Source of the DNA: a virus
DNA length: 26,834 bases
IMG/VR virus record: IMGVR_UViG_3300037246_001274
Location: 1 to 26,834 of that record
Direction: 5' to 3' (one strand)
Part shown: positions 3,018 to 26,834 of the stretch, piece by piece
How positions within the stretch are numbered: position 1 is the stretch's first letter
Layout: the number at the start of each line of letters is the position of its first letter
The notes under the pieces: model-generated
Told to the model about the DNA's origin: nothing
What the model saw: only the letters and a program-made list of their open reading frames with translations
Database searches by the model: none
Made by a program: the position numbers and the translations under genes

Positions 3018-4226
3018 TTACTCTACATAAGACTTCACACTTAATGTGTCGTCATATGGGCTTCCTTCCTGCACAGTGGCAGGATCAATCTTCAAAGGAC
3101 CAAACGGAGACAGAACCTGGAAGGTATCAAGGAACCAAGTTCGGTGCTTCTCTCCCAGAATAACAGGGTCTTCCTCCTCGTCCTCAGCAAACTGACCCAG
3201 GTAGATCTTGGTGGATTCCAGGGTCATTTTGACGTTGGACGTAAGGTCGATATAGTCCTCATCCCCATCGGTTGCTATAGAAATGAAGTTAACAGCCTTC
3301 AGAAGCATATTATCTTGGCTGACGATCGAGGCAGTCACCGGGATATACAGGTCTAGCACTTCCCGGTCAAAGTAAAGGAAGCTCTCAGCTGGAAGCTCTC
3401 CGGTCTCCTCTGATTCTGCCTCTTGCTGGGGAGGGTTAGTTTGTGGAAGGTTGGAGTCAGGGGCATCCAAGACCCCAATACCGTCCTGCTGAGGGTTAAA
3501 ATCAATCTCAAAAGATTGGGAGGGCTTTACATATAGTCTTACGCTGCCACCAACCTCTTCGTTTATAGCTCTTGGGAAACGACCAAAAGTTGAATCTTCG
3601 CCTGGAGCCAAGGAGGACCCACTGTAAGTGGTAGAGATAATGATATCCCCGCTAGGATTGATTACAGTCTCAACTCCATTCACTCGTCGGAAGTAGCGCC
3701 CAAGCTGAACTAGAGCAGTCTCGTCACCAGCAACCCCGCTGGTCGCAGGGTCGAAAGGATTTCGTGCGTGTGGCCACCAGCGCACAACGAAGGGGGAATC
3801 AATACGTCCTCCCATGAAGCCTATAACACACCAATCGCCATCCAAGTCGTAGGGGTCAATCTGCTTTAGAGTAGAATCGTAGTCTTCTCCATCGAACAAG
3901 ATAGAGGAGCCCTTTGGAAGCTTTTCTTGGTAGTCGTCTAGACCAATAGGCGCATCTGGAGTCAACGCTACGTTATCCAACATCAGATACCCATCCTGGC
4001 CGTCATCAACAACCAGAACTGTACACTCATGCCTATAGCCTCTTCTATCTGTAGTCTGAAATCCCGAGCGGTTCTTGTCAGAATCGGAGGGGTGAATATC
4101 GAGAACCACACCCAAGAAGAACGAATTCATGTGCCGATCAGGATAGTCTGACGAATCCATAGTGACGGAACTCTGTAAAGTAGTTCCATCAGGCATGATT
4201 AGCCCTCTGTACTTAGTAGAGAACAT
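3018..4226 (-). CDS. Baseplate spike / OB-fold (gp5/gpV-like) protein
   Basis: A 402-residue protein. Residues about 35-155 read as an OB-fold domain like that at the N-terminus of T4 gp5 or P2 gpV: several short strands, then DWCVIGFMGGRIDSPFVVRW (residues 131-150), which matches the typical 'd.Vlv.F..gd...P.V.G' end of such domains. The part after about 200 is beta-rich (for example SVRLYVKPSQSFEIDF) with an acidic, low-complexity linker near 265-285, and may form the shaft or a collar. It starts one base after the stop of the hub-peptidase gene, with a GGAGGAG ribosome binding site inside that gene's last codons. The position directly after the hub supports a role as the central spike that plugs the tube and pierces the envelope. 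The OB-fold call is by pattern only. Confidence 0.65.
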   Translation of the reverse strand: MFSTKYRGLIMPDGTTLQSSVTMDSSDYPDRHMNSFFLGVVLDIHPSDSDKNRSGFQTTDRRGYRHECTVLVVDDGQDGYLMLDNVALTPDAPIGLDDYQEKLPKGSSILFDGEDYDSTLKQIDPYDLDGDWCVIGFMGGRIDSPFVVRWWPHARNPFDPATSGVAGDETALVQLGRYFRRVNGVETVINPSGDIIISTTYSGSSLAPGEDSTFGRFPRAINEEVGGSVRLYVKPSQSFEIDFNPQQDGIGVLDAPDSNLPQTNPPQQEAESEETGELPAESFLYFDREVLDLYIPVTASIVSQDNMLLKAVNFISIATDGDEDYIDLTSNVKMTLESTKIYLGQFAEDEEEDPVILGEKHRTWFLDTFQVLSPFGPLKIDPATVQEGSPYDDTLSVKSYVE

Positions 4227-7200
4227 TTATCTCCTCCTCTTCCTCTTCCTGAAACTCCCAAGTTTAGGTAGACCCGAAGAGTCTGTACCGGATATGATAG
4301 AGGTGTCAGTGTTGTCTCTTGCATCCTCATTGTCCTGTAGACCGCTGTCTGTAAGATCTACTACCCTGCCTGCTGGAACAACCATCTCGTTGTACTTCTC
4401 GGAAACCTTAGCCTCTTCAACATACTCAATAGCGGAGATGTTATCCACAATATTGGTTCCATTTTCTTGGGAAGCAGTTGCTGCATAAGCATTGTTGCGG
4501 TACAAACCGGCCTCCTTTACAGTATCCCCACGCAAGAACAAAGATCTACGTATGGCAACAGGATCTGGAGTTAGGAAGTACGTTGCTAGACGGCTTCGTG
4601 CATTTCTTCGTTGTGAGTCTGTGGTTCCAAGATTCTCCATGTAAGGATACACATAGAGAGGGAAAGGGTTGTTGGGTTGCCCTCTGGACACCTGAAGGTT
4701 CGTCTTCATACTGTTGGGGTAAGACCAACTATGGTTTACTCCCTCAATGTAGAAACTCATGTTGCGCTCTTTGATGTCTAGACGATAGCCTACGCGAATC
4801 TCTGGGGCTCCTCGCATGTCAATTCTACCGGACAGATACTCCAGGTTGTGCTGGTACCAATGGTCTTGAAGTAACGCCCATCTAAGAATCTGCCTACGAG
4901 TAGACCCACTATCCACTGAGTTTTTGGCCGCAGCTGCTTCTCTCTTCGGAATAAGCGGCGTCCCGGTTTCTTCCTGAACATCCGATATAGGATTATTTGC
5001 TGTCTCCTCCGCAGAGCCATCACCGTTATCCTGGTCGTCGTCCTCTGTCTCCCCTTGGTCAGAAGGATCGGCACCTACACCTCCGTTTAGCAGCCCAACC
5101 AAATCCTTACCAAACGCGGAATAGAACTCTACAGGGTCGCAACCACGCTGGCCTGCGGCCACCATTGTATCCGTGTTCTCTCCAGAGTCGTCAAAACTAG
5201 CTGGAGCGGCAGGAGTAGAACCGGTGGTAGGGGACTCCGAGAAAGGAATTCTACGTGTAACCTCATCCTTGCGAGTAACATACCTTCTAATGATCTCAAA
5301 ATGCAGATGGATACCTCTGCCCGTACCCTCTTTACTGGTTCCAGTATTCCCCATATACCCAAGGAGTTGGCCCTTCTTTATTTGCTTTACCTTTTGAAGG
5401 GGCGTGCCTACGCCCGACGCCTCCGTGGCTGCACAGTAGTTTCCTATCTTGCTTGCTGTACCTGTTAGTCTAGAGGACTTACCTAAACGCACTCCAGGCG
5501 CAAAAGCTGCAAGATGACCATAGAGGGAAGATCTAAACCCCTTAATTCCTGTAAAGTTATGCCTAACTACTATATGATTTCCGTAGCCCGCCTTAACTCC
5601 GTCTGGTACGCAATGCGTTACCCAACCATCGGCAATAGCATAGACAGGAATATCAACACTATAAGTAACGCTACGTTTTTTGGTGATGTCAATTCCTTGG
5701 TGGAATACCCACCCCCCGATTTCTCCGCCTGGCACATCCGGACATCTAGCACCTGGCTTGCGCCGGTAGCCCCAATCTCCTTGGGCATTGTTTATAAAAC
5801 TAACAACGGAGGGGTCTGGGCCTATTGGCAAGCCTATCTGCCTAGGATCAACCTCTCCTAGATCCTCAGCCGAATTATCCCTCTTGTTGGTGGCTGGTAT
5901 CTTCTCAGGTACTGCACCTCTAAATCCCTTTTGCTTAGCCACAGCTTCCAAGCTGAAACGCGCTGCACGAGTTGTAACTGTTCGTACCCTAAGACCGTGA
6001 CGAAGAATATGAACGGGGGTGATGATGGGCAGAACGTCCTTCATGTAGAACTTCTGGTCGGTACCCAGAACTGCATCAGACCAGAACTCAAAAAGGTTGA
6101 AGTGATCCGCATCAGAGCGGCCAAGGGTCGATTTTATAATCTCTCCCTCAGAAACCACAGCTACGTCTAAGTGCTTGTATCCAAGGGCGGTTGGTTCCGC
6201 AGATACAGCCTGGGAGTCGGCCCTGGCTAGTGCTCGGTCATCCACATTGATATTTGGAATATCTACTACATGTCGTCCTGGCGTATTTGGGCCATCGGCA
6301 AAGATAGCGCCAAAGGGTACGGGACCAACATTGATTTCTTTAGCCTCGCCAGTCACCGGGTCCTTCTGGGACTTGACCTGCAGCGTAACTGCAGATAGAT
6401 CTACGCCATCGATAGTTGCGAAAGGGTATTCACGCATGATGACAGCGGGAATCATGGTGATTCCGTTCTCCTCACCCTCGTTCAAGTTACCATTCTTATC
6501 ATCCGCTGTGATAGAGTACCCTCCCTCCACAGGGCGGAAATCATTATCATCGTTGCCGGTTTCCGTGCTTAGAGGTCTTAGGTCGAAGAACAACTCATTG
6601 ATAGGCTCGTTAGAGAAAGTCCTCAAGATGGAGATAAGAGGTCCCTGCTTCTGCCAAACGGGCTGGCCGAATAAGTAACCATCTATAGCTCTCTTCTCTA
6701 CAAAGGTATACATATCAAGGATATCAATTAAGTAAGATTGCTCGGCAACGGTGCTTTCGAGAGTGGATATGTTGCGTTGGGCATCGGAGAACGCCGTGCC
6801 TGCAAGTCCTCGCAACTCCTTTACTGACGACATGTTCTTTCTAAGCGTCTCGTCTGTTGCCTGCTGAATGAGCTGGTCTGGGGTAGCAATCTGCTCTTTG
6901 GTTGCTCTCAGCTTAATTCCAAGCTGTTCAGCAACCGCTTTACGTTGCTCTTCGATGCTGCTTAGCTTTCCAAATTTGTCTACAGTCGCCGTAACTTGCT
7001 TTTGAATATCCTCTTTATACTGAAGATAGTTGCCACCAGCGGTGACGCCAAAGGCTTTAGCGTCTTCGATAGAAAGACGGCCTTGCACATCTAAAGCTCG
7101 CTTCTTTCTCAGCCTATCTTGGACACTGCCGGGAAAGTAGGAAGGCGGAAGCTGGAACTGAGTGCCAAACCCCATCATCTGATTGATGACATTCTGAATA

Positions 7201-21081: not shown

Positions 21082-22539
21082 TTATCGAACTTCGAGGCGA
21101 CCGATGTTGATCATGCGAATCCACTTCTTCGGAGCGAAGAGGATAGGCGTACCGTACAGAAGAATCATCCAACGGTAAGCTGGGGAGAGAACTGCAAGGT
21201 CCATCTTCATCATAGGCATGAGCTGACGGAAAGTTACAACGGATGGTGTAAGCTCGCCCAAGTACGCCACAGAAGTGAACGGTAGGGTAAGGTTTACATC
21301 ATTCCAAACTGTATCGGCAGCAGCACCTTGTAGAGCCGCAGGAACCTGAGCAACGAGCGAGTAGCTCGAAAAGTCAGCAGGAACAACGGTTAGTTCCAAG
21401 ATTGCGGACGAACGGTAAATACGAATGTATTCAGTTGGGAACGCACCGATAGATGCTGCGTTCTTTACAGTTACCACAACGTGATCTCCAGCGTCCTTTT
21501 CTGCCTGTGTAACGTCCACAGGAACAGCCTGGACAGGAGAAGGAGCGGACTCACCGAAACGGTTATTAGCCGTTGCGACGTAGTTAAACGCAGTTTCACC
21601 AGTTGGAGCACCCTTGTTGTGATCGCCATCCGTACCAGTAAGGGTAGGGTCAGCAATTTGCTGCGGTGCAGCTGGTGCGTTAGGAGACGTTGCAGCGGAA
21701 GGAGGCGTTGCGTTCTGACGAATGAATACGTCTGGATTGAACTCAAGTACGCCAGCCTGGGTGCTGATCGTCTGGATGGTATTACCAATCTGACCATTTT
21801 GTGGTGCAGGTAGGGAAATACGCTCACGAGGGTAGAATGTCTTCACAAGGTCGGACATGGTGCGAGTACCGAGGAACATGTCGGTTGGGAAACCGTAGTT
21901 CTCGACAATCTCGTTTGCTGCCTCTTCCATGTCTGCTTCCTGGATGGAGTTACCCTCCAGGTCGAGAACGGCGGAAGCATCAATCAACGCGTCAAGACCG
22001 TCCCACTGCTCTGCTTCTCCGTCAAAGGAGAGAGAGGAGTCACCGGAGAACAGATTCTGTTCAACACGCTCAAGCAACCAAAGGATGCCCGACTGGTTCT
22101 CAAGAGCGATCAAGTCGCCATGAGCCGGATGGACGAGGGATGCCTGATGCGTGACCTCGCGGGTGGTACCAAGGAACTTCACAAGCTGGACGCGACGTGC
22201 ATACGACGTGTCGGTTGCCTGTGGGAGTTCACCTTCCTGTACGAAAGGATTCTGGGTTCCACCATAGTTAATTAGTTGGTTGTACTCTTCAACAGTTGAG
22301 TACGCAGGGCTCTTGGGGATCTTCTTCCAAAACTTAATGTGGGAAGAAGTGTACGTTAGTACCTTGAGGCTTGCTTCTAGAGACTCTACACGAAGTGCGG
22401 AACCACCAGTCTTACCTGCACCGGTCTGATAACCGGCCTCAAGAGCTTTACTCAACTCAGCAATGTCAGCGTCGGTGCCAGCACCGAATCCGGACATACC
22501 TGATGTCGAGTTCTGAAAGGATTTAAGACCTACAGTCAT
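21082..22539 (-). CDS. Major capsid protein (HK97 fold, Herelleviridae-like)
   Basis: A 485-residue protein that matches, from memory, the approximately 463-residue capsid protein of phage K along its length: IKFWKKIPKSPAYSTVEEYN (68-87); WDGLDALIDASAVLDLEGNS (179-198); ENYGFPTDMFLGTRTMSDLV (213-232); and the C-terminus LGELTPSVVTFRQLMPMMKM (427-446) plus LLYGTPILFAPKKWIRMINI (460-479). Residues about 286-418 are an Ig/FN3-like insert (APTGETAFNYVATANNRFGE), as also found in phage K. Residues 1-55 are a likely propeptide region; KALEAGY at 31-37 and GGSALRVESL at 45-54 resemble segments in the protease and scaffold. The ATG at 22539 has AAGGAG at 8 nt. Confidence 0.95.
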   Translation of the reverse strand: MTVGLKSFQNSTSGMSGFGAGTDADIAELSKALEAGYQTGAGKTGGSALRVESLEASLKVLTYTSSHIKFWKKIPKSPAYSTVEEYNQLINYGGTQNPFVQEGELPQATDTSYARRVQLVKFLGTTREVTHQASLVHPAHGDLIALENQSGILWLLERVEQNLFSGDSSLSFDGEAEQWDGLDALIDASAVLDLEGNSIQEADMEEAANEIVENYGFPTDMFLGTRTMSDLVKTFYPRERISLPAPQNGQIGNTIQTISTQAGVLEFNPDVFIRQNATPPSAATSPNAPAAPQQIADPTLTGTDGDHNKGAPTGETAFNYVATANNRFGESAPSPVQAVPVDVTQAEKDAGDHVVVTVKNAASIGAFPTEYIRIYRSSAILELTVVPADFSSYSLVAQVPAALQGAAADTVWNDVNLTLPFTSVAYLGELTPSVVTFRQLMPMMKMDLAVLSPAYRWMILLYGTPILFAPKKWIRMINIGRLEVR

Positions 22540-22561: not shown

Positions 22562-23548
22562 TTAGCGACCTAGACGGTACGCACGAACGGAAGAATCCAT
22601 CTCTGGGGACAGAGTATTGGTGGATTCAAATTTTACAACCTCAGTTGCGCTCAATTCACCCGACTCAACCATTCGAGTCATCGTGTCAAGAACTTGGCTC
22701 TTCGAAAGCTGCTCTTCACCCTGAGGTGAGTCGCCGCCTGAACCAAAGCTCTTCTCAACTGCCGTTGCGGACTTAGGGGCACGCGCTGGCGTACTCTCAA
22801 GCTGCTCGATGCGCTGAGACTGCAAGGTAAGAACCTCTGCAAGACCTACGATTGACTTCGCAAGCTCTGCATTGTAACTACGCTGCTCTGTGTGTGCTCC
22901 CTGAATCGACTTAGCGATACGAGACTCAACACCCGAAAGTGCTTCACTCTGAACGCCAGCCCAGCCAGAAAGGAACGAGGAGACTTCAAGGCCCTTAGCT
23001 ACATCTTCGTTATCGGAAGCTGCATCTTCGAGGGACTTAGCGAAAGGATTCTTTTTGTCATCCTTGTCGTCGTCGTCCTTGTCATCACAGGCCTTTTCGA
23101 CCTTTTCGTTCTTGTCATCATCGTCAGCGTCCTTGGACTTCTTACCGGTACCGGAGAAGTTCGTAAACATACCACCCTTAGAAAGGGCAGCGGCTAGGAT
23201 AGCCTTGTCGATGTCATTAAGAGACTGACCAGATGCGGCCTTCTCCATTACAGACTTTACCATCTCTGCGGAACCAGAATAATCTGTTCCGTCCTCAGAA
23301 ACACCGTCTGTTGCTCCATCCTCAGGTGACTTACGCTGACCAGTTCCGGCCCAGGTTCCTGGGTCAGAGTTAGCGCCAGTGTGGAATACCTGAGTCGAAC
23401 CCGAATCGGAACCCGCACCTGCACCGGCATCACGCATCGACTCTACATTAGTCGTTGCGGTACCGCGAGAATTGTGGCCCTTAGCGAGGTCCTGAAGCGT
23501 TTCAAGTGCCTTGGAGACACTCTCTTCTGCTACAGTTTTTTCACTCAT
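22562..23548 (-). CDS. Probable capsid scaffold protein
   Basis: A 328-residue protein between protease and capsid genes, the place of the approximately 318-residue scaffold candidate in phage K. It is hydrophilic and largely disordered or helical, as scaffolds are. Residues 138-166 are very rich in Asp and Lys (two DDDDK runs). Residues 205-252 form a coiled coil (GLAEVLTLQSQRIEQLES). Several K-[AS]-[LFI] segments occur (KALETL, AKSLEDA, AKSIQG, EKSFGSGG), possible protease sites. The C-terminus (VLDTMTRMVESGELSATEVV) is helical and ends in a basic tail, which might bind the capsid protein. The ATG at 23548 has AAGGAG upstream. Role is by position and composition. Confidence 0.7.
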   Translation of the reverse strand: MSEKTVAEESVSKALETLQDLAKGHNSRGTATTNVESMRDAGAGAGSDSGSTQVFHTGANSDPGTWAGTGQRKSPEDGATDGVSEDGTDYSGSAEMVKSVMEKAASGQSLNDIDKAILAAALSKGGMFTNFSGTGKKSKDADDDDKNEKVEKACDDKDDDDKDDKKNPFAKSLEDAASDNEDVAKGLEVSSFLSGWAGVQSEALSGVESRIAKSIQGAHTEQRSYNAELAKSIVGLAEVLTLQSQRIEQLESTPARAPKSATAVEKSFGSGGDSPQGEEQLSKSQVLDTMTRMVESGELSATEVVKFESTNTLSPEMDSSVRAYRLGR

Positions 23549-23559
23549 TTGATTGCTCC

Positions 23560-24306
23560 TTAAAAAAGCTCAAACACTACGTTTGCGACAGCCACTGCAG
23601 CTTCCTCGGTCAGTCCATCGGACTTCTGGAGATGTTCCACAGTTTCATCGTATGTTAATGCCTTGCAAGTGCGATCCTTTTTGACGCCACCATCAAGACT
23701 CTCGGGAACAAGCGGTGATCCACCGCCTGCGGTTAGGGCCTTATCTTCGTCTTCTTCTGCCTCATCAGCAACCTCAGACTTGGAGAAATCCCACTTTGCT
23801 GCAGACAGGGATTTTGCAACCTCTGCCCACGTAGTCGTATTTACGGGAGCTGGTGTAAGTGCGATGTCTTGAATCCAACACTCCGCTATCTCTTTACCAG
23901 CTCGTCTCTTTACTTTACCCTGAATGGAAAATCCTACCTTGCGGCTAGCTCCTGAAGCGCTAAGAGCATGCATTAGCTCCCAGTACTCATCGGCCTTCTT
24001 GTGGTTGTTGAAAAGGAAACCCTTAACCCACATACCGTTCTTGGTGATTTTGCACTCAGTTGGTTGCCCGACCTTGTTTTCTGGACCGGGCTTATGATCA
24101 TCGTTAAAGTACCCATGCTTCATGAAGTACGAGAAATCGATTCCGTGCTGCTTGACAATCTCTCCCTGTAGATCGCGGGAGTCAGTGGAAGCGATTCCCT
24201 GAATCCAGCGCTTAGTGTCTTTGCCTTTTCCGGATTTCTTTACTTCAAGTGCAGTAGCGGGTACGAAGAACGTGAATGTATCTTCGTCTGTCCAACCATT
24301 TTGCAT
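23560..24306 (-). CDS. Prohead maturation protease (S78-like)
   Basis: A 248-residue protein with the pattern of caudovirus prohead serine proteases. Probable catalytic H71 lies in FNDDHKP and S127 in VGFSIQG; the following strand AECWIQDIALTPAPVN (141-156) is the usual '.e..l..iALTP.PaN' element. The N-terminal half (RWIQGIASTDSRDLQGEIV) is the typical beta barrel start. The C-terminal 70 residues are acidic and disordered and may be removed by self-cleavage (KALTAGGGSP at 189-198). The enzyme would trim scaffold and capsid propeptides in the prohead. The size is close to the 257 residues of phage K. The ATG at 24306 follows an AAGGT site 11 nt upstream and lies about 24 nt after a strong terminator (see the leader). 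Confidence 0.88.
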   Translation of the reverse strand: MQNGWTDEDTFTFFVPATALEVKKSGKGKDTKRWIQGIASTDSRDLQGEIVKQHGIDFSYFMKHGYFNDDHKPGPENKVGQPTECKITKNGMWVKGFLFNNHKKADEYWELMHALSASGASRKVGFSIQGKVKRRAGKEIAECWIQDIALTPAPVNTTTWAEVAKSLSAAKWDFSKSEVADEAEEDEDKALTAGGGSPLVPESLDGGVKKDRTCKALTYDETVEHLQKSDGLTEEAAVAVANVVFELF

Positions 24307-24314
24307 ATTGAGTA

Positions 24315-24389
24315 TTACCTTAGGTGAATAAAAAAGGGAGCACCTGGTACTACTTCTAGAACCAGGCTGCTCCCTATATCGGAGGACAT
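24315..24389 (-). CDS. Possible leader ORF (24 codons) across the terminator
   Basis: Starting at ATG 24389 (MSSDIGSSLVLE...), 24 codons read through the whole terminator stem and T tract and stop with TAA at 24315, whose AAGGTAA overlaps the ribosome binding site of the protease gene. Upstream GGGGG is 11 nt from the ATG, a weak site. A ribosome here would prevent hairpin formation and end 8 nt before the protease ATG. It could be a chance ORF. Confidence 0.3.
   Translation of the reverse strand: MSSDIGSSLVLEVVPGAPFFIHLR
24330..24375 (-). terminator. Strong intrinsic terminator / attenuator before the capsid operon
   Basis: Minus strand AGGGAGCA pairs with TGCTCCCT and CCTGGT with ACCAGG: 14 bp with one bulged G and a 12-nt loop, followed by TTTTT. 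It ends only about 24 nt before the protease ATG, and no promoter fits in between, so protease, scaffold and capsid must be transcribed by read-through or antitermination. Confidence 0.85.
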
Positions 24390-24433
24390 CAATTAAGAAG
24401 CCCCCTAGGCGGAGACCTTCAAGCTTCCTTCTA

Positions 24434-24461
24434 ATTATACTCCATCACATCCTACCGTCAA
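24434..24461 (-). promoter_or_regulatory. Near-consensus sigma-70 promoter for the capsid operon
   Basis: Minus strand: -35 TTGACG (24461-24456), 16-nt spacer, -10 TATAAT (24439-24434). Predicted start is near 24427, giving about 120 nt of leader before the protease ATG. The leader first holds a GAAGC / GCTTC stem (about 24398-24427) and then the terminator. This is the best promoter match in the window. Confidence 0.8.
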
Positions 24462-24499: not shown

Positions 24500-24754
24500 T
24501 TATTTAGAGCGGCCTTCACCCTTAAAACTGCGCAGATAGAGTGGGGGAGACTTCTCTTTGGCCAGGGCCTTGACTATATCTACATCAAGCTTCACTGGAA
24601 TAGGGATCTCCTCTCCACAGCCCTTACAAACTGCGCGGGCTCCCTTCTCTTCGGAAAGGAGTAATATCTTGGTCCGCATCTTGATTTCGCCATTGACGCT
24701 CTTGATGACCATCTCATGGCAATTCGAACATGCTAGGAATACAGTCTCGTTCAT
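24500..24754 (-). CDS. Small zinc-ribbon protein (Com-like pattern)
   Basis: An 84-residue protein with CSNC (C9, C12) and CKGC (C43, C46), a four-cysteine zinc ribbon. The order 'CSNCHEMVIKS..GEIKMRTK ... VCKGCGEEIPIPV' resembles small phage zinc-ribbon proteins such as the Com group, some of which bind RNA and regulate translation. The C-terminal third is helical and basic. Its ATG overlaps the stop of the previous gene (ATGA), so it is coupled to it. It is the last gene of the upstream unit, directly before the promoter and attenuator of the capsid operon. A regulatory role there is possible but unproven. Confidence 0.65.
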   Translation of the reverse strand: MNETVFLACSNCHEMVIKSVNGEIKMRTKILLLSEEKGARAVCKGCGEEIPIPVKLDVDIVKALAKEKSPPLYLRSFKGEGRSK

Positions 24755-25881
24755 TCAACTACCAGCCTAAAGGTTCCGTCCTCATCAATCGTCACGTTCT
24801 TGTTAACCAGCACGCTCTCTGTGAAGCTGTCGCTCATACCCTCCAGGCCCGCTGTGGGGATAGACTCCAGTACCGGAGCTGTGCTCACAGGAGTCTCCTG
24901 GGTCACGAACTCAGCCAAGTCAGGTGAGATTCCAAAGTACTTCTCACCAAAGCTGTGAATGACACTGGAGAAGATGCCTCCGCCCTTGGTCAGGTCGAAG
25001 CTGGTGAATGGGAGGTCATATACCCTCACGTTCACCGGGCAGCCTTCTCTATCGAAGAAGTCTATGGAAGAGTCGGTTACTACACCGTAGATGTCTTGTC
25101 CGGTCTCTACCATGATAGGCACGATGGAGCTAGGACGTGGGAAGTGGGACTTGGCTAGAGGATAGACCTCAGCAACAAAGTCCTGCTCGCTAAAGCGGAA
25201 AGCAAGGTGCTTCACAAGCTCAGGGATCTCGGCTTTAGCGGAAATGGCTTCTTCCATCTCTTCACGCGCCTCGTCTACCTCGTTCATCTTGTAGGCTAGC
25301 TCTGGGTTGGCTGCAGCGAAGAAAGAGTCTTGCAGCATGGCCCAAGCGTATGTCTGGTCGTTGTGGTGTCCATACACCAAGCCCTCGGAAGGGATAGCGG
25401 TGTAGGAGCCTGTTCCAGAGGAGACAGTGATGCTTTCGGCCTTCTTAGCTCTAGCTACCTTCACCATCTCTCTAACGTCGGCTACTGCAGGATGAGGTGC
25501 TCCCTCAATCTGGTCGCCCTCGTCGTCCATCTCAAGCTCACTGCGTTCCCACAGCCCTGGGCGAGACGGGTGTCCATTAGCCCTGTGGAGAATGATAGCA
25601 TCCTCCTCGTTGAGGTTAGGGTCTATGACCATCCAGTGGTATGGGGCCATGTGGAATGCGGGGTTGCCGTATCCCATAAGGAAGTGGAGGTTGCCTTCTA
25701 TAGAACCTAGAGTCTTCTTCTTGCCTTCGTGGCCTGGGTAGCAGGAGGTGAAAGTAAGGTCGGATGCCTTCTTTCCCTTTAGCTGCTCTGCCATGTGGGA
25801 AAGACGCTTCCAGTTCTCTAGGCCGATAGGCTTTCTTGCCTTAGCAATAGGCTCCCAGCTGTCAAACAGTTCGAGTTCCAT
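24751..25881 (-). CDS. Unknown protein of the unit upstream of the capsid operon
   Basis: A 376-residue protein that I do not recognise. The first 160 residues are rich in His and aromatic residues (GHEGKKKTLGSIEGNLHFLM; FHMAPYHWMVIDPNLNEEDA), then comes an acidic helix (VDEAREEMEEAISAKAEIPE) and a C-terminal beta-rich part (DIYGVVTDSSIDFFDREGCP; VRVYDLPFTSFDLTKGGGIF). No membrane segment or signal peptide is evident. Its ATG overlaps the previous stop by one base (TAATG), so it probably acts with that gene's product. The place, between an expected portal gene and the protease, is not normally occupied by such a protein in phage K. Possibly a virion protein; function open. Confidence 0.7.
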   Translation of the reverse strand: MELELFDSWEPIAKARKPIGLENWKRLSHMAEQLKGKKASDLTFTSCYPGHEGKKKTLGSIEGNLHFLMGYGNPAFHMAPYHWMVIDPNLNEEDAIILHRANGHPSRPGLWERSELEMDDEGDQIEGAPHPAVADVREMVKVARAKKAESITVSSGTGSYTAIPSEGLVYGHHNDQTYAWAMLQDSFFAAANPELAYKMNEVDEAREEMEEAISAKAEIPELVKHLAFRFSEQDFVAEVYPLAKSHFPRPSSIVPIMVETGQDIYGVVTDSSIDFFDREGCPVNVRVYDLPFTSFDLTKGGGIFSSVIHSFGEKYFGISPDLAEFVTQETPVSTAPVLESIPTAGLEGMSDSFTESVLVNKNVTIDEDGTFRLVVE

Positions 25882-26834
25882 TACTGTTCCTCCTTGCCGA
25901 AGTCGGTATCCACCGCACCAGCTTCTTGGTCTGCTGCATCGGACTGTATTGGATTGCCGTCAGCGTCAGTTGTTTCTTCTCCTTCAACCGATTCCTGATC
26001 TGCAAGATCGGATGCCACAGCCTCCTCAACCAACGCCTGCTCCTCTGGGGAGATATCGTGCATGGGCTGAGCGTGTAGCCAGGTGGAGAACTCAATCTCT
26101 TCTGCTCTACGACCCTGCAGGTCGGAGAACACGGTAAGAGTGCTAAACTCGTCAGAGTCCACTCGTGGGACAATACTCTTAGTGACGGGGCCTTTGTAGG
26201 CTTCCATAAGAACTGACCTGAGCTTGGAGTCGATAAGGTACTGCATATCTTTCAAGGTGCCGAAGGCTCTCTTTACCTCGCTGAGCGCAAGACCATCTAC
26301 CTCTTCTTCAGGAGTATCCTCAAACGCCCTACGGTTGACTGCACGGGAGTAAATGTGGCTCGCGTGCCAGGACAGCAGGTAGGCTGGGGAAACCTTTAGG
26401 AACTTGAAAATGGAGGCAAGGTGCTTGGTTCCAAGCTTGCCTTCTCCCTGGACAGATGAGACAACGAACAGAGGGGAGGAGGACTCTCTTAGGCCCCCTA
26501 GGCTAGTTAGGAAGTCCAGGAAATCTGGGTCACAGATGAACTTGCGTCCTAACAGCTTCACTGTATTGTCGATGACCTCAAGGTCAGAAACGGCAGCGTT
26601 TAGAAGCTCTTCCAGCTCGTAAAGACCTTGGTCCATGAGCATTATGATTGCGCCGACTACCTTGTCTCTGGGTTGCTCGCTAGCGAACTTATCAAGAGCA
26701 AAGGTACGGAGATTAGGGATATTTGCGTCCGTAATGCGGAGCTGGTACTGAACCCACAGGTCAACGTTCTCGCGGACATCGGAATCAAGATAGACGTATC
26801 TAACCTCTCCCTCGCGGTCGTACATCTCGAACCA
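25881..26834 (-). CDS. Unknown protein, 5' end outside the window
   Basis: The frame is open to the right edge (WFE before the first ATG at 26825, with no ribosome binding site), so the true start lies outside. At least 317 residues. The visible part is mostly helical (LITDQ-free, with FALDKFASEQPRDKVVGAII; LGTKHLASIFKFLKVSPAYL; SEVKRAFGTLKDMQYLIDSK) and ends in a long acidic, disordered tail (from about residue 255 of the visible part). I see no helicase, nuclease, polymerase or portal motif. It is coupled to the next gene by a TAATG overlap. A portal C-terminus is possible by position but not supported by sequence. Confidence 0.65.
   Translation of the reverse strand, partial: WFEMYDREGEVRYVYLDSDVRENVDLWVQYQLRITDANIPNLRTFALDKFASEQPRDKVVGAIIMLMDQGLYELEELLNAAVSDLEVIDNTVKLLGRKFICDPDFLDFLTSLGGLRESSSPLFVVSSVQGEGKLGTKHLASIFKFLKVSPAYLLSWHASHIYSRAVNRRAFEDTPEEEVDGLALSEVKRAFGTLKDMQYLIDSKLRSVLMEAYKGPVTKSIVPRVDSDEFSTLTVFSDLQGRRAEEIEFSTWLHAQPMHDISPEEQALVEEAVASDLADQESVEGEETTDADGNPIQSDAADQEAGAVDTDFGKEEQ

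Follow-up and report, generated by a model that had tools for sequence, protein, structure and literature searches.

A promoter, leader and terminator stand before the head operon

The window, that is, the whole 26,834-nt (26.8-kb) fragment analysed here, comes from an uncultured virus record and carries on its minus strand a head operon in which the genes for protease, scaffold and major capsid protein follow a leader in that order. The features that matter below are as follows.

24500–24754, minus strand: C4 zinc-ribbon protein of 84 aa, candidate effector (family alignment; co-occurs with the leader)
24434–24461, minus strand: sigma70/sigmaA-type promoter, TTGACG-16-TATAAT, an 11/12 match and the best in the window
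24401–24427, minus strand: 5' leader with a first CUCC (24414–24411, inside the conserved TTGAAGGTCTCC) and a G-rich partner, B (24405–24401)
24381–24384, minus strand: C strand, CUCC, putative antiterminator partner of GGAG, found automatically as a four-base complement to the terminator foot
24335–24375, minus strand: predicted intrinsic terminator hairpin, -27.3 kcal/mol as drawn
24370–24374, minus strand: D strand, GGGAG, the 5'-arm side of the terminator foot, common to antiterminator and terminator; the most conserved block
24336–24340, minus strand: E strand, CUCCC, the 3'-arm side of the terminator foot; changes in step with D and C in relatives L063, L076, L202 and L212
24330–24335, minus strand: terminator U-tract and predicted RNA 3' end, found in all terminator-type leaders
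24318–24321, minus strand: AAGG, protease ribosome-binding site, inside the conserved AAGGTAATACTCAATATG; kept in the window's clade
23560–24306, minus strand: prohead (head maturation) protease (PHROG 1028, 5.6e-54), a relative of SPO1 gp3.2 and the first gene after the switch
22562–23548, minus strand: head scaffolding protein (PHROG 15087, 1.4e-15)
21082–22539, minus strand: major capsid protein (PHROG 752, 5.5e-102)

A first-pass annotation of this DNA, made from the sequence alone, had described a near-consensus promoter, a terminator with a T run ahead of the protease ATG, and no further promoter between the two, and all three held up. The TTGACG (24461–24456) and TATAAT (24439–24434) boxes are separated by a 16-nt spacer and place the expected transcription start near 24427; the promoter scan found no other match above 10/12 in the whole window, and none between terminator and ATG. 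The terminator stem, AGGGAGCA(G)CCTGGT / ACCAGGTGCTCCCT with one bulged G, is followed by a U-tract ending at 24330, which leaves 23 nt to the protease ATG at 24306. Its fold has a z-score of -2.8, with 2 of 200 shuffles folding equally well, and the terminator scan, which allows loops of no more than 8 nt, passed over it on account of its longer loop. Neither the window nor seven relatives gave a match to an Rfam covariance model. Taken from one genome this structure is suggestive only; it is comparison across genomes that makes it far more than chance. Separately, the AAGGTAATACTCAATATG block 5' of the protease start (24306–24321) is conserved in the window's clade beyond what a ribosome-binding site would account for.

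Evaluating the head genes themselves, we found that the best cultured matches of the protease belong to the SPO1 group at ~36–40% identity and that the major capsid protein is ~42–44% identical to that group, so that by sequence identity both are distant relatives of the SPO1 group (Herelleviridae). The head operons of that group possess homologous protease, scaffold and capsid genes in identical order; unlike the window, SPO1, EalM-132 and Bacchae have the portal gene directly before the protease, with no zinc-ribbon gene and no such leader. Where this order predicts a portal gene, the window carries two genes 5' of the zinc ribbon (24751–26825; 376 and 314 aa) with no PHROG or Pfam match at E 0.001. 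Late genes of the cultured SPO1 group reportedly have promoters unlike the host sigmaA type (phage K, PMC11598898; Listeria phage CKA15, PMC12282133), and the passages found in transcriptome studies of these phages mention no such leader. In seven large records, a search for sigma70 region 4 returned one sub-threshold match, and a search for single-subunit RNA polymerases returned nothing, but as it was equally empty in its control genomes this carries no weight.

The leader recurs in diverged uncultured phages

The observation is real, and its extent is larger than first reported. With relatives gathered independently of the leader, through searches with the window protease and with two alignments of proteases, we found the promoter-leader-terminator unit at the same place before the protease in dozens of uncultured phages, which supports the earlier view of a regulatory leader ahead of a capsid operon. 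The intergenic DNA has diverged, yet the TTGAC promoter, leader, terminator and protease start recur in that order, and in nearly every relative TTGAC lies 40–90 nt 5' of the foot of the terminator. A terminator-type leader is present at 45 of the 72 protease rows of a tree that also holds leaderless relatives. Leader length is ~100 nt in the window's clade, where it includes an extra 5' hairpin, and in most other relatives the terminator foot follows the estimated start by only 14–46 nt. The extra hairpin, which opens several alternative pairings, is restricted to the window's clade (kept in L003–L011 and L028); it is absent from L012 and L063, in which the first CUCC-type element stands directly before the terminator foot. 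What is shared across leaders is a core of CUCC-A-N-AAA-GGGAG, a variable upper stem with near-zero sequence information, CUCC(C) and the U-tract.

We then searched all IMG/VR contigs with a protein-blind pattern (CTCCNNAAAGGGAG, a gap, CTCCYTTTT), which returned 35 stretches, 30 of them directly before the protease and most of these with the zinc-ribbon gene upstream; the other five lie elsewhere (L108, L111, L126 and the pair L106/L118, a single locus). Applied to bacterial and archaeal genomes totalling 257 Gb, the same pattern matched 39 stretches, none of which has a protease or zinc-ribbon relative nearby, and each of 17 whole phage records, including ones of 115 and 169 kb, holds at most one copy. 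The leader element can serve as a sequence signature marking this phage group in metagenomes. Several loci deserve mention in their own right. At the L106/L118 locus, seen in two records of another phage, the CUCC/GGGAG/CUCCC terminator motif precedes a different small gene. In L028 (minus strand, ~4160–5000) and L079, an HNH-endonuclease-like gene is inserted between leader and protease, with the leader retained. Genomes of the Nitrospina group (L140, L142, L145, L150, L156) hold a recurring terminator-like element, CCTCCGAAAAGGGAGCTGTTGTCAAGGCAGCTCCCTTTT, that is unrelated to the phage locus.

These relatives also bear on translation-coupled attenuation, an earlier proposal by which ribosomes on a 24-codon ORF (24389–24315) running through the terminator would govern it. 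The ORF exists, ending on the protease ribosome-binding site, and L009 has a similar one, but it lacks a Shine-Dalgarno sequence. It is missing from L003, L007, L008, L063 and L066, in others it is interrupted or shifted in frame, and many relatives have room for only 14–30 nt between start site and terminator arm. We reject the leader peptide on this lack of conservation and hold its chances to be close to negligible. A second earlier suggestion, a competing AGGTG/CACCT hairpin just downstream of the terminator, was likewise dropped as a family feature, given that some members of the window's clade have a different match of 5–6 nt and that matches outside the clade do not exceed 4 nt. In L007–L009 and L012, an AGCAC 3' of the U-tract, immediately ahead of the protease ribosome-binding site, is complementary to GTGCT of the terminator 3' arm, and the window's AGGTG/CACCT match may represent a variant pairing of this kind.

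Three strands covary around the terminator foot

Across the aligned leaders, the conserved feature is a three-strand switch (upstream CUCC, terminator-foot GGAG, downstream CUCC) and not the ORF. GGAG can pair either with the upstream CUCC, as an antiterminator, or with the downstream CUCC, as the terminator, and it is this competition by the upstream CUCC that the first-pass annotation, which had proposed comparing stems and ORF across relatives, missed as the main feature; the comparison found the pairings at the terminator foot conserved, with covariation, and the ORF not. A program detected a four-base complement to the terminator foot, with a loop of 3–9, in 43 of 46 leaders against 5.9 expected from shuffles of the upstream 20 nt, a count in which some leaders came from a pattern containing CTCC and in which the protein-selected leaders agree. 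The three misses (L066, L072, L082) do possess CUCC, the program having drawn longer stems there.

Where the D strand has changed, its C and E partners have changed to match, as seen in L063 (TCCC/GGGA/TCCC), L202 (ACTC/GAGT/ACTC), L212 (TTCC/GGAA/TTCC) and L076 (CTAC/GTAG/CTAC), and in part, through G-U pairs, in L225; these five stand on separate branches of the protease tree. In L198 and L093 the downstream strand alone has changed, and G-U pairing preserves the stem. We regard this three-strand covariation as the strongest comparative evidence for a switch. Together with the promoter upstream and the terminator before the first gene, a terminator-excluding pairing that covaries (five variant lineages, one only by G-U) gives this leader the sequence attributes of the general class of intrinsic terminator-based attenuators. 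The antiterminator, with four pairs, is far weaker than the full terminator, and the switch, if it operates, must therefore be kinetic or need a factor. Conservation of the D strand exceeds what pairing needs, suggesting possible sequence recognition by something else.

A deeper clade carries the element without a terminator

A second form of the leader came to light with more distant proteases, 31–38% identical to the query; as in the window type, it is placed 3' of the zinc-ribbon gene and 5' of the protease. Its element, GACTC(AA/GT)GTTTGA(C/T)GGAGT(A/G), again has the CUC...GGAG arrangement and no terminator, and occurs as GACTC..GTTTGAYGGAGTR at L231:1430–1505 and also in L233, L241, L242, L243 and L248; a second pattern scan added further terminator-free members and a few chance matches in unrelated genes. 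This second form is a single clade in the protease tree (100/99). In most of its members the protease start region is complementary to the 5' side of the element or to bases immediately preceding it, with 7–9 perfect pairs in seven of the eleven leaders compared and a mean longest match of 6.6 versus 4.15 in shuffled sequence (0 of 5000 shuffles reach 6.6). The pairing includes compensatory changes (GUGU/ACAC in L231 and L243 versus CAAG(U)/(A)CUUG in L233, L241 and L242), and within the eleven-leader comparison it did not appear in L227 and L230.

This second form bears on the idea that the terminated transcript is a free small RNA acting in trans, with the UCUCC at its unpaired 5' end serving as the anti-Shine-Dalgarno seed. 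Gram-positive C-rich sRNAs carry UCCC motifs, and after termination the CUCC would indeed be single-stranded beside a stable hairpin. The deeper clade, however, retains the element without a terminator and so would make no short RNA, CUCC covaries with a partner in cis in divergent leaders, and the RNA is always encoded directly before the protease and nowhere else in the record. We therefore consider a trans-acting RNA very unlikely.

An alternative placing control on the polymerase is antitermination of the lambda Q or AlpA type, in which a phage factor loads on the polymerase via a DNA element at the promoter, the terminator is ignored and CUCC is incidental; release of a short RNA as a by-product had been named beside it. 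There, too, late genes are preceded by a promoter, a short transcript and a terminator (AlpA, PMC9371919), and one subclade of the present leaders (L112, L119, L100, L187, L180) carries, in the spacer from -35 to -10, a TTCTAGAA-type palindrome that is a possible protein-binding site. Such a mechanism leaves unexplained both the conserved, covarying CUCC and the deeper clade with its terminator-free element; by eye, the listed leaders share no family-wide spacer motif, and a NusG-type protein was not found in the seven large records. On balance, we judge it quite unlikely.

The zinc-ribbon gene travels with the leader

The gene just upstream of the leader had already been put forward as a candidate regulator, a suggestion that its co-occurrence with the leader shows to have been sound. 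Its product has no Pfam or PHROGs family at the usual cut-offs, and searching with the single protein returned near copies only, whereas a family alignment defines invariant C9, C12, K18, K25, C43 and C46 and near-invariant R27 and K29. All 59 zinc ribbons compared keep the four cysteines, and the K...K-x-R-x-K set is 94–100% conserved, a basic set consistent with nucleic-acid binding, though no proof of it. The AlphaFold model (pLDDT 80) had no significant match in the PDB, no RNA-binding relative was detectable by sequence or fold, and tblastn identified no cultured relative carrying the gene.

The zinc-ribbon profile matches every leader locus whose upstream flank is present, and relatives without the gene have no leader. 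Ten protease-tree rows with neither form a clade nested inside the leader-bearing clade, joined by a 100/100 branch with L093 and L113, which carry both; this nesting suggests that leader and gene were probably lost together. The changes are few (~three label changes on the tree), which makes shared synteny a real alternative to a functional link. In L013 the gene lies ~2.3 kb upstream, not adjoining the leader, and the leader still stands before the protease. We interpret the zinc-ribbon protein as the likeliest candidate effector.

Synteny also enters a reading that needs no effector, in which the small hairpin is a fixed-ratio dampener setting a constant read-through fraction and thereby keeping the head genes low relative to others. 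Switch parts of this kind can be effective without a ligand, and the zinc-ribbon link may be mere synteny. A dampener does not account for the strict conservation of AAAGGGAG and CUCC, for the joint loss with the zinc-ribbon gene or for the translational version of the element, and we consider it unlikely.

A proposed antitermination switch for the head genes

Dampener, Q/AlpA-type antitermination and small RNA rank lower, since each of them leaves the three-strand covariation, the terminator-free form or both unpredicted. The best reading of the leader, and one that we consider probable, is a cis-acting RNA antitermination switch gating transcription of the head operon. Genome comparison establishes how the leader is built, that this build is conserved, that its three strands covary and that it occurs together with the zinc-ribbon gene; we infer that termination in vivo depends on the exchange of strands, and that the zinc-ribbon protein turns on the head genes by binding the CUCC/GGAG hairpin and making it more stable.

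Under this proposed switch, a host-type RNA polymerase would start near 24427, and GGAG, made right after the upstream CUCC, would pair first with it as a small hairpin, CUCC-A-N-AAAG-GGAG. Were this hairpin to persist, the CUCCC beside the U-tract would stay unpaired and the polymerase would continue into the genes for protease, scaffold and major capsid protein and probably those behind; were the downstream strand to displace it, the terminator would close and an RNA of ~55–100 nt would be released. The upper stem would be compatible with both states, confining the exchange to the foot, and the small hairpin would either do its work while the RNA is still being made and the downstream strand has yet to appear, or depend on a factor to keep it in place. 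The product of the zinc-ribbon gene that lies just upstream would be that stabilising factor and set the ON state. The deeper clade would fit the same logic, its element standing opposite a hairpin that occludes the start site instead of a terminator, and if the stabilised small hairpin is the ON state, one effector would open both forms.

The switch probably decides capsid-gene expression, because it is kept across very divergent relatives together with the zinc-ribbon gene. The timing of capsid synthesis is a central decision of phage infection, and a host-type promoter with a conserved conditional terminator before the head operon suggests a different solution to it in a large uncultured group. 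More specifically, this large uncultured SPO1-like group may possess an undescribed viral regulatory pair in which a small RNA-binding protein of the zinc-ribbon type works with a minimal CUC(C)/GGAG hairpin to activate head genes through either of two interchangeable outputs (the terminator in the window type, the start-site hairpin in the deeper clade), a fuller claim that we advance tentatively and rate at somewhat less than an even chance. Neither Rfam nor the open-licence literature searched holds a described leader of this kind.

Comparison with known systems

Three known systems resemble the proposed switch in part. In lambda pR'-tR', a promoter, a short transcript and a terminator before late genes are established. 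Lambda with Q, and likewise AlpA, resembles the window in placing these parts directly before late structural or effector genes, with a short RNA expected; unlike there, the switch strands of the window lie in the RNA itself and covary, and no common promoter-spacer element is seen. The RAT leaders of BglG, LicT and SacY are alike in logic, a small hairpin overlapping the 5' arm of a terminator and excluding it. The RAT hairpin exceeds the window's in length, has conserved internal loops and is the binding site of a CAT-domain protein, whereas the window hairpin has about four pairs with an A-rich loop and its linked gene encodes a zinc ribbon.

The third is Com of phage Mu, a zinc-finger protein that binds a hairpin of the mom leader with a CC(N)2-3GAG motif, 5' of a start-hiding structure, and exposes the start (PMC6483171). 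As in the window, a small C4 zinc-finger gene stands just upstream of the gene it regulates, and the motif may be set beside CUCC...GGAG; the motif spacing differs, and the window version would act on a terminator. Homology between Com and the zinc ribbons was not detected (hhalign probability 3.9%), nor did the zinc-ribbon proteins match the Com Pfam family PF10122, which Com itself matches at 2.7e-9. If the zinc ribbon is the effector, this leader would be among the smallest protein-responsive antitermination switches, and a single RNA element would have transcriptional as well as translational outputs, comparable to riboswitches.
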